Origin: Candidatus Gastranaerophilales bacterium | Lineage (GTDB): Bacteria; Cyanobacteriota; Vampirovibrionia; Gastranaerophilales; Gastranaerophilaceae | Length of the DNA stretch: 64,000 nucleotides | Direction: 5' to 3' | Assembly (NCBI GenBank): GCA_944325825.1 | Contig: CALVBP010000006.1 | Coordinates: 1-64,000, forward strand | Shown: one piece after another, positions 57,847 to 63,438 of the stretch | Layout: every line of letters starts with the position of its first letter | Numbering within the stretch: the stretch's first letter is position 1 | The notes under the pieces: model-generated | What the model was told of the DNA's origin: nothing | Seen by the model: the letters and a program-made list of their open reading frames with translations, nothing else | Databases searched by the model: none | Position numbers and translations under genes: made by a program

Positions 57847-57873
57847 AGCTGGCCTTACGGTCAGCTTTTTTTT
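57847..57873 (+). terminator. Terminator of rplA
   Basis: The stem AGCTGGCC / GGTCAGCT (one G-T pair) has a TTAC loop and is followed by eight T residues. Confidence 0.88.
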
Positions 57874-57875
57874 AA

Positions 57876-57916
57876 GAGAGCGGGTGAAAATGATGTAATC
57901 ATTTTCACCCGCTCTC
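57876..57916 (+). repeat. 19-bp perfect palindrome directly after the rplA terminator
   Basis: GAGAGCGGGTGAAAATGAT pairs perfectly with its copy across a GTA loop and is followed by CTTTTAAAT. It could be a second terminator, although such a long stem is unusual; it may instead be a mobile palindromic repeat. Confidence 0.8.
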
Positions 57917-57954
57917 CTTTTAAATCCGGATTGCGCCGTAATAATTTTACCTCC

Positions 57955-58421: not shown

Positions 58422-59936
58422 ATGGATTACAATACCTTATTAGAGAATCTTGATATTGACTGCCTGCTAGTTAACTCAACTAACGAGTATTTAACAGAAT
58501 ATTCTGCACTTGATGAAAACGCAAGGTATACTTTAACGGGATTTTCCGGGTCTACAGGAGATGCTTTAATTACCAAAAGAGGAATATACCTCTTTGTTGA
58601 CGGCAGGTACCACACTCAAGCAGATATGGAGGCAAAAGAGGGTGTAAATATAATTAAACTTCAGCTCGGACAGAAACAGGATGATGAAATCTGCAAGCTT
58701 ATTAAGCCGGATGAAGTTCTCGGAATTGTATCTAAAAAGGTTTCACAAAGCAGATACGAAAAATTTCAGGCCAGAGTTAAAACTAGATTACTGATAAGTG
58801 ACCCTGTAAATAATTACACCTGCCATCATACCGAAGAACCCGTTGACTGCGGTTACGAGCCACGAGAATTTACCCCTGTAAGACCTACATTTATAACTAA
58901 CCTTGAAGAAGTTTCTTATCTTACCGGATTACGAGATTTTTCCGAAGACGGTTCAGCAAAAATATGGGGAAAATTATTTATTAACGGCGAAAATCAAATA
59001 CTTTTCAAAGAATCTTCCGATGAATTTTTGAAAAGCTTTGATAAAGAACTTATAGTTGATAAAAATTCAATAAATGCATATGACTACTCATTAATTAAAA
59101 ATCCTGTTCATAAGGTTTCGGAAGTAAAAATTCTTAAGTCAGTAAAAACAGATGCAGAAATTGAATTATACAAAAAGAATTTTGAAGCTACTGATAAAGC
59201 TGTAATGGCAATTCGCAGTTATATTGAGTCAAATGATAACCTTAGTGAATTTGAGATTGCCCGAAGGCTGAGAGAAGAGTTTATAAACTACGGAGCTGAG
59301 TCATTAAGCTTTAAATCAATTGTTGCTGTGGATAAAAATTCTGCATTAGCTCATTATTCAAAAAACGCAAAAGATGTATATTTAAAAGAAGGCTCTCTTG
59401 TTCTTATTGATTGTGGTGCTTACTATAAAAACGGTCTCGCAACAGATATAACAAGAGTTTTTGTAAAAGGTGAACCGTCAGAATTACAAAAACGAGTTTA
59501 TACAACAGTATTGAAAGCTTTTTTAAATGCTTATAATTGTCACCTCACCCCAGCCCTCTCCTCAAAGGAGAGGAAGGAAAAAATTACCGGATTTGAAATG
59601 GACACAAAAGCTCGCCAAATTCTTGATAACAAAATAGAAGGTTTCACCTTCTCACACGGGCTCGGGCACGGAATCGGAATTAATGTACATGAATATCCGC
59701 CGAATTTGAGTCAAAATGAAATAGCAAAAGTTGAAATTCTTGATAATATGTGTTTTACAATAGAGCCGGGGCTATACAATCCTGAACATTTCGGAGTACG
59801 GCTTGAAAATTCCTGCTACAGAAAAAACGGAAAAAATATTTCTTTTGTAAAAACAGGATATGAAGGGAAATTAATTGATTATACTCTTTTAAATGCACAA
59901 GAAAAAGAATGGCTCAAGGAGTTTGAAATTTTATGA
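58422..59936 (+). CDS. pepP: Xaa-Pro aminopeptidase (M24), with an in-frame repeat insertion
   Basis: This 504-residue protein has a creatinase-like N-terminal domain (YTLTGFSGSTGDALIT, FVDGRYHTQAD) and the pita-bread metallopeptidase domain. Its five metal ligands are two Asp in VLIDCGAYYKNGLATDITR, His in SHGLGHGIGINVHE, Glu in TIEPGLYNPE and Glu in VRLENSCYR. Residues about 373-386 (CHLTPALSSKERKE) are encoded by a 33-base palindromic repeat that matches intergenic copies at 62072-62107 and 62373-62412. The remaining sequence lines up with M24 enzymes without it. It releases N-terminal residues preceding proline. It overlaps the methyltransferase gene by four bases. Confidence 0.92.
   Translation: MDYNTLLENLDIDCLLVNSTNEYLTEYSALDENARYTLTGFSGSTGDALITKRGIYLFVDGRYHTQADMEAKEGVNIIKLQLGQKQDDEICKLIKPDEVLGIVSKKVSQSRYEKFQARVKTRLLISDPVNNYTCHHTEEPVDCGYEPREFTPVRPTFITNLEEVSYLTGLRDFSEDGSAKIWGKLFINGENQILFKESSDEFLKSFDKELIVDKNSINAYDYSLIKNPVHKVSEVKILKSVKTDAEIELYKKNFEATDKAVMAIRSYIESNDNLSEFEIARRLREEFINYGAESLSFKSIVAVDKNSALAHYSKNAKDVYLKEGSLVLIDCGAYYKNGLATDITRVFVKGEPSELQKRVYTTVLKAFLNAYNCHLTPALSSKERKEKITGFEMDTKARQILDNKIEGFTFSHGLGHGIGINVHEYPPNLSQNEIAKVEILDNMCFTIEPGLYNPEHFGVRLENSCYRKNGKNISFVKTGYEGKLIDYTLLNAQEKEWLKEFEIL
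59541..59573 (+). repeat. Palindromic repeat family A copy inside pepP
   Basis: CACCTCACCCCAGCC precedes a perfect eight-pair hairpin (CCTCTCCT / AGGAGAGG, three-base loop). It keeps the reading frame open. Reverse complements of the intergenic copies at 62072-62107 and 62373-62412 align with it. Confidence 0.85.
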
Positions 59937-61788: not shown

Positions 61789-62028
61789 AATTCAATCTCC
61801 TTTTTTTCTTCATTTCATCCTTGATAAATTACTATTCAATTTTAAATTTCAACATTAATAAGCTTGCGTAACAGAACCGCAAACAGCCTAATATCGTGTG
61901 ATTATCGGATTTATACCTTCACACTAATATACTAAGATATTTATATAAAGAATTAAATTCTCTTTAAGTTAGAACTTTCTCTACCTAAAGTATAAATTTT
62001 AGGTAATTATAAATATTCCCGCCAAATA

Positions 62029-62056
62029 GATACTTCGCTTACGCACAGTATGACGG
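62029..62056 (+). repeat. Repeat family P3, copy a
   Basis: A 28-base unit starting GATACTTCGCTTACGC and ending AGTATGACGG, with ATACT/AGTAT ends that pair. Copy b (63315-63342) differs at two positions. Confidence 0.8.
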
Positions 62057-62071
62057 AGGAAATAAACTTAG

Positions 62072-62107
62072 CTCCCTCCCCTGATTGGGGAGGGCAGGGG
62101 TGGGGAG
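62072..62107 (-). repeat. Repeat family A, intergenic copy 1
   Basis: CCCTCCCC pairs with GGGGAGGG, with a CAGGGGTGGGGAG flank. The reverse complement matches the copy inside pepP. Confidence 0.8.
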
Positions 62108-62161
62108 CCGTAAGTGACTGGTGAATAGTAATTGAGTTAATAAGTGATTGAGTGAATAAGA

Positions 62162-62201
62162 TGTTTGTATAACTTGTCACCCTGAACTTGATTCAGGGTC
62201 T
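62162..62201 (+). repeat. Repeat family P2, copy a
   Basis: TGTTTGTATAACTTGTC is followed by an eight-pair hairpin ACCCTGAA / TTCAGGGT with loop CTTGA. Confidence 0.85.
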
Positions 62202-62223
62202 ATCAATTTCAATATAAATATTT

Positions 62224-62298
62224 CTTGGAGGTTTTATTCTCTCAAACACCCTTCCGGCTTTGCCTCCCGCTATCGTTTCGAGAACAAAACCTCCAGAG
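62224..62298. repeat. Palindromic repeat family P1, copy b
   Basis: Arms CTTGGAGGTTTTATTCTC and GAGAACAAAACCTCCAGAG pair over at least 15 positions around a 38-base interior that matches copy a (57955-58028) at 31 of 38 positions. The one internal arm mismatch is A-C, and so G-U on the minus strand. Confidence 0.85.
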
Positions 62299-62372
62299 TA
62301 TCAAAATATATAAATGCCGAACACGACAGCAATATCATCATTTTCTGAGAAGAAAGGACATTGGTAAATCTT

Positions 62373-62412
62373 ACCCCCTCCCCTGCTCGGGGAGGACAGA
62401 GGTGGGGGAGGG
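62373..62412 (-). repeat. Repeat family A, intergenic copy 2
   Basis: CCCCTCCCC and CGGGGAGGA pair around a short loop, followed by CAGAGGTGGGGGAGGGG. It adjoins P4 copy a. Confidence 0.75.
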
Positions 62413-62413
62413 G

Positions 62414-62517
62414 CAATCACAGGCATTTTTCGGTAGAAAAATGCAGTAAAAAGTGTTTTTTCTTTCTTTGGGAGGGTTTCTTTCTTTTTGTATCGCAAGA
62501 AAAGAAAGAAATACTCT
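62414..62517 (+). repeat. Composite repeat P4, copy a
   Basis: CAATCACA is followed by the hairpin GGCATTTTTC-GGTA-GAAAAATGC, then TTTTTCTTTCTTTGGGAG and a second inverted repeat of TTTCTTTC/GAAAGAAA. Copy b is at 63092-63193. Confidence 0.85.
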
Positions 62518-62542
62518 GAATACCAACGGATGGGAAATAAGG

Positions 62543-62582
62543 TGTTTGTATAGCCTGTCATGCTGAACTCGATTCAGCATCT
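62543..62582 (+). repeat. Repeat family P2, copy b
   Basis: Same layout as copy a, with hairpin ATGCTGAA / TTCAGCAT and loop CTCGA. Two stem positions differ from copy a and both remain paired. Confidence 0.85.
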
Positions 62583-62822
62583 TACCAATGTAGCGTTATA
62601 CTTGGTTTCCGGTAAGATCCCGAAGGGGTAAATATAAGTTAGCAGGCTAGACCAACACAATAGTCCGCTTGGTATAAAAAATTCGGGATGACATCTTCGT
62701 TTATTCTCTTTTATATGTTCTTTTTGGTCACAATACATATCTTTACTCATTTTCCCGTTTTTGTATAAAATTATCTTTCTATCGGAAGAGGGCTTTGCAT
62801 TTCTTTTATTTAATTAACCCTT

Positions 62823-62869
62823 GTACTTTTCTTTTTCTTTATTTACGAGGCAAAGAAAAAGAAAAGTAC
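62823..62869. repeat. 18-bp perfect palindrome P5
   Basis: GTACTTTTCTTTTTCTTT and its exact reverse complement are separated by 11 bases. An additional A/G-rich copy (AAAAGAAAAAGAAAA) follows. Confidence 0.9.
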
Positions 62870-63091
62870 GAAAAGAAAAAGAAAACACGTATTGCTTTCA
62901 ATGCCCTTCGGGCATCATACGGGTTGTGCTTCGCACAATTTCTTAAGCTCGCTATTGCGGCTTTGCCGCACGCTCGCTATTGACACTTCACCCTCCAACT
63001 GTGAAAACCCCTCCAGGATTCCTAAGCTCACAAAGTTCGCAAAGGAATCCTACCCTCCCCGCCTTCCGCTTACGCTTCCCGGGGAGGATTA

Positions 63092-63193
63092 CAATCAGGC
63101 ATTTTTCGGTAGAAAAATGCAGCAGCACGGGTTTTTCTTTCTTTGGGAGCGTTTCTTTCTTTTTTCATCGTAAAAAAAAGAAAGAAATGCTCT
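63092..63193 (+). repeat. Composite repeat P4, copy b
   Basis: Same order of modules as copy a: CAATCA, the GGCATTTTTC/GAAAAATGC hairpin, the TTTCTTTCTTTGGGAG block and the GAGCGTTTCTTTC/GAAAGAAATGCTC inverted repeat. It is preceded by a CCTCCCC/GGGGAGG stem, as is copy a. Confidence 0.85.
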
Positions 63194-63314
63194 AAAGCTA
63201 CTTAAACATTGATAGATTCCGGTTCAGAGGCCGGAATGACTGAGTCCAATTCGTTATTCTGAGGCATTAGCCGAAGAACCGCAATGGTTGGGCACTTCCA
63301 CCCTTAGTCTTTGC

Positions 63315-63342
63315 GATACTTCGCTTACGCTTAGTATGACGG
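63315..63342 (+). repeat. Repeat family P3, copy b
   Basis: Identical to copy a at 26 of 28 positions. Confidence 0.8.
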
Positions 63343-63438
63343 TAGAAGGTAGGATGCGGTAAATCGTTGATTTACCGCATCCTACTTGAAAAGAAATAAC
63401 CTTAATGCTAAACTATAGGTCAAAAGAGGTATGAAAAA

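Follow-up and report, generated by a model that had tools for sequence, protein, structure and literature searches.

Palindromic repeats lodged in frame within protein-coding genes have been known mainly from Rickettsia, and the agent that spreads them has not been identified. The available portions of two reports describe these elements (RPEs) as occurring in unrelated protein genes, whose products are thought to be still functional (PMC10969869, PMC3733652), and the second of these also places some of the REP sequences that form REPtrons with RAYT within genes (PMC3733652). The DUF559 nuclease domain, as far as the accessible text of the respective papers goes, has been assigned to the EDxHD homing-endonuclease family in a cyanobacterium (PMC9403480), described as a domain of Vsr-like PD-(D/E)XK endonucleases such as VsrA of Caulobacter (PMC12907096), and reported as part of recombination hotspots in Legionella (PMC12308824). 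None of the passages cited here connects DUF559 with palindromic repeats or with insertion in frame and without splicing. Targeted literature searches, with most subscription journals outside their coverage, returned no paper that makes such a link for DUF559 or Vsr, and we regard the novelty of the DUF559–palindrome element described below as provisional. We favor, with moderate confidence, the reading that a palindromic insert in an M24 peptidase gene is a solo (non-autonomous) terminal palindrome of a mobile module encoding a DUF559 nuclease, with homing as the putative means of its spread.

The locus lies in the window, by which we mean the whole 64,000-nucleotide stretch analyzed (positions 1 to 64,000 of contig CALVBP010000006.1 from a Candidatus Gastranaerophilales bacterium), and comprises the following features:

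58422..59936, + strand: host gene, an ORF for an M24 metallopeptidase (aminopeptidase P-like) of 504 aa (Pfam Peptidase_M24, 1.8e-46; Creatinase_N, 9.7e-9)
59537..59582, + strand: in-frame insert from the ortholog alignment, codons ~373–388, net +12 codons; a solo palindrome copy, agreeing in 32 of 37 bases with the right end of DUF559 module L379
59543..59550, + strand: tail motif CCTCACCC; in full modules this side faces the nuclease ORF, and the same motif borders DUF559 ORFs in relatives
59555..59573, + strand: hairpin CCTCTCCT-CAA-AGGAGAGG, 8 perfect pairs
62063..62105, − strand: intergenic, reverse-oriented relative of the element (repeat family D4; pattern match at 62087–62102 with 2 mismatches)
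62365..62407, − strand: second intergenic, reverse-oriented relative (repeat family D4; 79% identical to the copy at 62063)

The original prediction held that a palindromic repeat is inserted in frame in the M24 gene, and the ortholog alignment bears this out with a net gain of 36 nt, or 12 codons, around the perfect eight-pair stem. Within the ORF, the sequence TTGTCACCTCACCCCAGCCCTCTCCTCAAAGGAGAGG occupies window positions 59537–59573, and residues 373–386, coding from 59538, are CHLTPALSSKERKE; folded as DNA, the hairpin has a z of −2.55, with 3 of 200 shuffles folding as well. Among the orthologs, some of them genus members and others taken from named records (mostly Candidatus Gastranaerophilales), the insert is carried by six genomes of the genus, namely the window genome (G000), G033, G035, G036, G040 and G042. 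The alignment shows it to be missing in the close relatives G048 and G054 and in the remaining aligned members of the genus, and distant homologs are without the insert residues. The AlphaFold model places residues 372–389 between helices 354–371 and 390–401, with a pLDDT of 64–69 for the insert block against a protein mean of 91, as would be expected of a flexible loop. The proposed location between helices agrees with the structure model, while the proposed distance from the metal ligands holds as counted along the chain: the motifs IDCG, TDIT, GHGIG, EPG and RLEN, which from knowledge of the family we take to supply the ligands, lie at least 26 residues away. About 12–15 host bases differ at the insert junction, and no clean boundary of the empty site could be drawn; a search by eye found no consistent target-site duplication at the M24 junctions, and no full nuclease module was seen at this site. 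In orthologs from other clades (L086, L089, L093, L095 and L103, L129) the same loop is enlarged differently (CFPCKEKGTASAV; MQGGEDAKRQSPLRG). Apparent same-family repeat hits on this loop in another clade were rejected, as L086, L089, L093 (of the same type as L095), L103 and L129 have no match to DUF559 termini, their best scores of 12–13 being at chance level. Upstream, at 57872–57920, a long terminator-like inverted repeat (GAGAGCGGGTGAAAATGATG..CATTTTCACCCGCTCTCC) lies right after the ribosomal protein L1 gene.

The insert belongs to a repeat family that is abundant in this genome. With up to three mismatches, the element core CACCCCAGCCCTCTCC has 53 copies in 1.85 Mb, as compared to 4 for a reversed-pattern control, and two matches in the window against 0.05 expected. 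Genomic copies were located by pattern search and then read as stretches, most of them sitting in repeat-rich intergenic tracts. The element had also been claimed to recur twice downstream in reverse complement; two reverse-oriented members of the same family are indeed present (at 62063 and 62365), yet they are diverged from the M24 copy, which makes "also occurs" a little strong. Two further in-frame copies were recovered from other ORFs of the window genome, in the genes for the BioA aminotransferase (L140, DTSSSRPSPQGEGA) and an M20 peptidase (L022, APHPDPLLKEKG), whose orthologs have the same loops either empty or holding other variants of the element; in relatives, it is found in the genes for LpxK, IlvD, HydF, a TIM-barrel protein and others. 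As read from its letters, the consensus GACACCTCACCCCAACCCTCTCCTCAAGGAGAGGGAG has zero stops in all three forward frames and encodes Pro/Ser/Gly/charged peptides, and the M24, M20 and BioA copies are each read in a different frame. The strict hairpin-plus-tail detector undercounts degenerate copies; even those in the BioA and M20 genes of the window genome escape it. Two element-bearing ORFs with no Pfam match (L239, L248) were left out of the gene count, and elements at the extreme 5′ end of the ORFs L155, L161, L165 and L218 were treated as upstream of the true start.

That the M24 insert is an ordinary loop indel with a chance likeness to the repeat, or an assembly error, might be argued from the varying length of this loop among distant relatives and from the inserts of another clade that do not match the element family. 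However, 32–36 of 37–38 bases match the element, the insert is common to six independently assembled genomes, and the excess of genome-wide copies over the control is as given above. We hold such an origin to be scarcely credible, the match statistics having already refuted it.

Some further observations concern the family and its surroundings. In the BioA orthologs L281 and L284 the element is reversed at the same loop where other genomes have forward copies, suggesting either that insertion occurred more than once or that the element was inverted. At G006:C19:14482-14862, an array of many copies with 60-base spacing adjoins a DUF559 gene. In the window, the intergenic tract downstream of the flagellin gene (61800–63430) has several unrelated repeat families crowded together, including an 85-nt GGCATTTTTCGGTAGAAAAATGC unit, a CCTGAACTTGATTCAGG unit and an 18-bp perfect palindrome at 62823–62869.

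As to the enzyme that goes with the element, its copy number across the genus is correlated with the DUF559 count (Spearman rho 0.49, p=3e-5, phylogeny not being corrected for), as against 0.17 (p=0.18) for the Y1_Tnp count. Two genomes count against a DUF559-based model: neither DUF559 nor Y1_Tnp was found in the element-rich window genome (95% complete, ~50 copies), and G042 (99% complete) has 27 copies with no DUF559 and two Y1_Tnp genes. A REP sequence mobilized by RAYT (a Y1 tyrosine transposase) would likewise be a short palindrome with many intergenic and occasional in-frame copies, and Y1_Tnp genes are present in 36 of the 65 genus genomes, G042 included. Against this, Y1_Tnp is missing not only from the window genome but also from the element-rich G040, G033, G064 and G061, and element copy number does not track it; none of the 20 Y1_Tnp loci examined has the element immediately adjoining, other repeats, often GTAG-tagged, being found there; and the aligned element copies have neither a GTAG nor a CGTC tag at the hairpin foot, where the tail is CCTCACCC. 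We therefore reject RAYT as the agent, given the lack of Y1_Tnp in the window genome and the different repeats flanking Y1_Tnp in the genus, and consider a REP origin unlikely. The RAYT-like genes at the genus Y1_Tnp loci (L453–L472) have inverted repeats of their own, often GTAG-tagged, and constitute a second palindrome–enzyme system in the same genomes.

The first lead toward DUF559 came from an in-frame copy (L157, in G009) next to a DUF559 domain within a radical SAM protein. DUF559 (PF04480), for which the closest solved chain is 3hrl, is found in 47 of the 65 genus genomes, and the full module has the layout [hairpin]-GGGTGAGG-(DUF559 Vsr-like nuclease ORF)-CCTCACCC-[hairpin]. Within 250 bp of DUF559, strict element matches are seen on the left at 8 of 30 loci, all in the "<" orientation, and on the right at 12, the nearest always being ">"; outside these flanks, the same 30 loci contain a single element copy in 66.6 kb. 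Judged by eye, most of the others among the 30 have variant palindromes in the same layout. An alignment test that presupposes no particular sequence recovered inverted flank pairs at a score of at least 14 at 21 of the 30 loci, as compared to 0 of 600 control positions and 9 of 480 in element-rich control loci. In G033 and G040, the M24 insert agrees in 36 of 38 bases with the right end of L379, a module of G033 whose nuclease frame has one internal stop (score 34, against 32 for the left end of L379), and the window copy is close to the same right end.

Many DUF559 matches lie within long stop-free frames. Those that were read are whole modules lodged in frame in HydF, PrmA, a radical SAM protein, a UvrD-type helicase and a TIM-barrel protein, and next to the nuclease lie peptides that the palindromes encode. 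In HydF, the module is positioned between the NKxD and SAKT motifs of the GTPase, and a single site has the palindrome alone in G016, G020, G006, G024 and G030 (some degenerate) and the full module in G001, G004, G005, G017, G025 and G026, while being empty in further genomes. The in-gene nucleases are under strong purifying selection, with an omega of 0.04–0.18 where computable (several dS values being saturated) and the core motif kept. In the DUF559 tree the enzyme-embedded copies make up a single clade separate from the intergenic ones (SH-aLRT 95), and host-site labels take 8 changes, the minimum possible, as compared to 23.8 if shuffled, with genome labels taking 46. Homing nucleases that are specific for their sites should cluster by site in this way, but vertical descent with loss would predict clustering too. 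As judged from the predicted proteins, enzymes appear to carry a nuclease domain of at least 100 residues in frame with no splicing machinery.

The last point bears on whether the full modules could be inteins with a DUF559/EDxHD endonuclease, the M24 insert being a degenerate remnant. Site-specific insertion into conserved enzymes would fit this, as would the available text of one report, where a section dealing with inteins places a DUF559 gene in the EDxHD homing-endonuclease family (PMC9403480). Nevertheless, Pfam scans of six host proteins and L157 returned DUF559 and the host domains but no Hint/intein domain, palindrome-encoded peptides lie on both flanks, and the solo insert is too short for splicing; with no Hint domain in these scans of the in-gene modules we reject the intein reading as very improbable. 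In one HydF protein (L374 of G004), the right flank of the module is expanded to a tandem peptide repeat (PLQGEGEDSI..) of several in-frame copies.

The M24 insert itself has a history of exchange. Along the gene, G040 and G054 are 89% identical outside codons 348–403 but 65% inside them (p=2e-10), whereas G040 and G036 are 92% identical within these codons as compared to 71% elsewhere (p=4e-8), and G040 resembles G033 there too. The exchanged tract is ~170 nt in length with the insert at its center, and a G036/G033-like donor of such a tract fits better than independent insertion in G040, which we reject. On these alignments, the insert has evidently moved between species via homologous recombination of a short tract, and the nuclease may have driven the transfer; the tract resembles co-conversion of flanks, but ordinary recombination leaves an identical trace. 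The original comparison to the RPEs was apt as regards a mobile in-frame palindrome, but missed both this transfer between species and the match to the terminal inverted repeat of the DUF559 module.

As a model, the module would spread as follows. The nuclease might nick or cut an element-free allele, or the palindrome itself, and repair off the element-bearing allele would copy the element with short flanks across, as in homing or gene conversion. Loss of the interior of a full module, or mobilization in trans, would then produce solo palindromes. The insert could persist in genes because its consensus is free of stops whichever forward frame is used, codes for Pro/Ser/Gly/charged peptides and lies in loops, so that the host protein would tolerate it unspliced.

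A second way to read the association reverses the roles: the palindromes would be independent RPE-like miniature elements of unknown agency, with the DUF559 genes as passengers that target or hitch-hike on them. The elements do far outnumber the DUF559 genes, some element-rich genomes have none, and the M24 insert spread through ordinary-looking homologous recombination. Passengers, however, would hardly be expected to show a fixed inverted orientation and tight placement at both sides of the ORF, a palindrome sequence particular to the DUF559 of each phylum, and nuclease lineages specific to host sites. We regard the passenger scenario as possible but distinctly less probable than a palindrome terminating a nuclease module.

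The association extends beyond the genus. We examined 20 DUF559 loci in records of Cyanobacteriota, Deinococcota, Alpha- and Gammaproteobacteria; some of the loci are related to one another and do not count as independent. Of these 20 loci, 11 have inverted flank pairs at p<0.01, several others have such a hairpin on one side, and the palindromes beside the genes differ between lineages. Similar solo elements are also present in Klebsiella, Escherichia and Methylobacterium records. On a Synechocystis sp. B12 plasmid (L411), a hairpin-flanked DUF559 gene is found where the BREX pglX methyltransferase gene is annotated as two pieces. Whether mobile elements made of a DUF559 nuclease and its cognate palindromes are a widespread class, a nuclease-driven counterpart of RAYT/REP that colonizes bacterial enzymes in frame and unspliced, is in our estimate an evenly balanced proposition. 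Were it true, it would account for CCCTCACCCC..CCCTCTCC-type palindromes scattered over several phyla and would provide a source of new protein loops.

More generally, palindrome and nuclease module together suggest a previously undescribed type of selfish element, one whose presence in genes is tolerated without splicing. With DUF559 as a candidate agent and an empty, solo and full series at one enzyme site, the spread of palindromes into genes becomes directly testable. The modules also offer a mobile context for DUF559, a common but poorly understood nuclease family, and in-frame nuclease domains without splicing bear on how proteins acquire new segments.

Set against the known systems, the element is like the RPEs in being a multi-copy palindrome in frame in unrelated genes, here M24, M20 and BioA, and LpxK, IlvD and HydF in relatives. 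The RPEs, as the available text describes them, are ~150 bp in length and fall in families with no named enzyme, whereas the present element is ~37–40 nt, comes from a different phylum and agrees in sequence with the termini of a nuclease module; because of the differences in size (~40 nt versus ~150 bp) and lineage, we file it as RPE-like rather than as an RPE. With REPtrons it shares an enzyme gene between inverted palindromes and many solo copies, but the enzyme is a DUF559 nuclease and not a Y1 transposase, there is no GTAG/CGTC tag, and the RAYTs of the genus have other repeats. VsrA of Caulobacter has the same domain as the modules, and is read in the available portion of its report as acting in mismatch repair, with no link drawn there to palindromic repeats or in-gene insertion (PMC12907096). 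The likeness to homing endonuclease genes (EDxHD or Vsr-like; in inteins, introns or free-standing) lies in the PF04480 nuclease encoded by the full modules (the window's solo copy encodes none), in site-specific nuclease lineages within conserved enzymes, with a HydF site that is empty, solo or full, and perhaps in the short tract exchanged at M24, which looks like co-conversion but could equally reflect ordinary recombination. In contrast to such genes, the modules lack a splicing element; their nuclease remains an in-frame part of the host ORF, and the palindromes on either side of it are found on their own as well.
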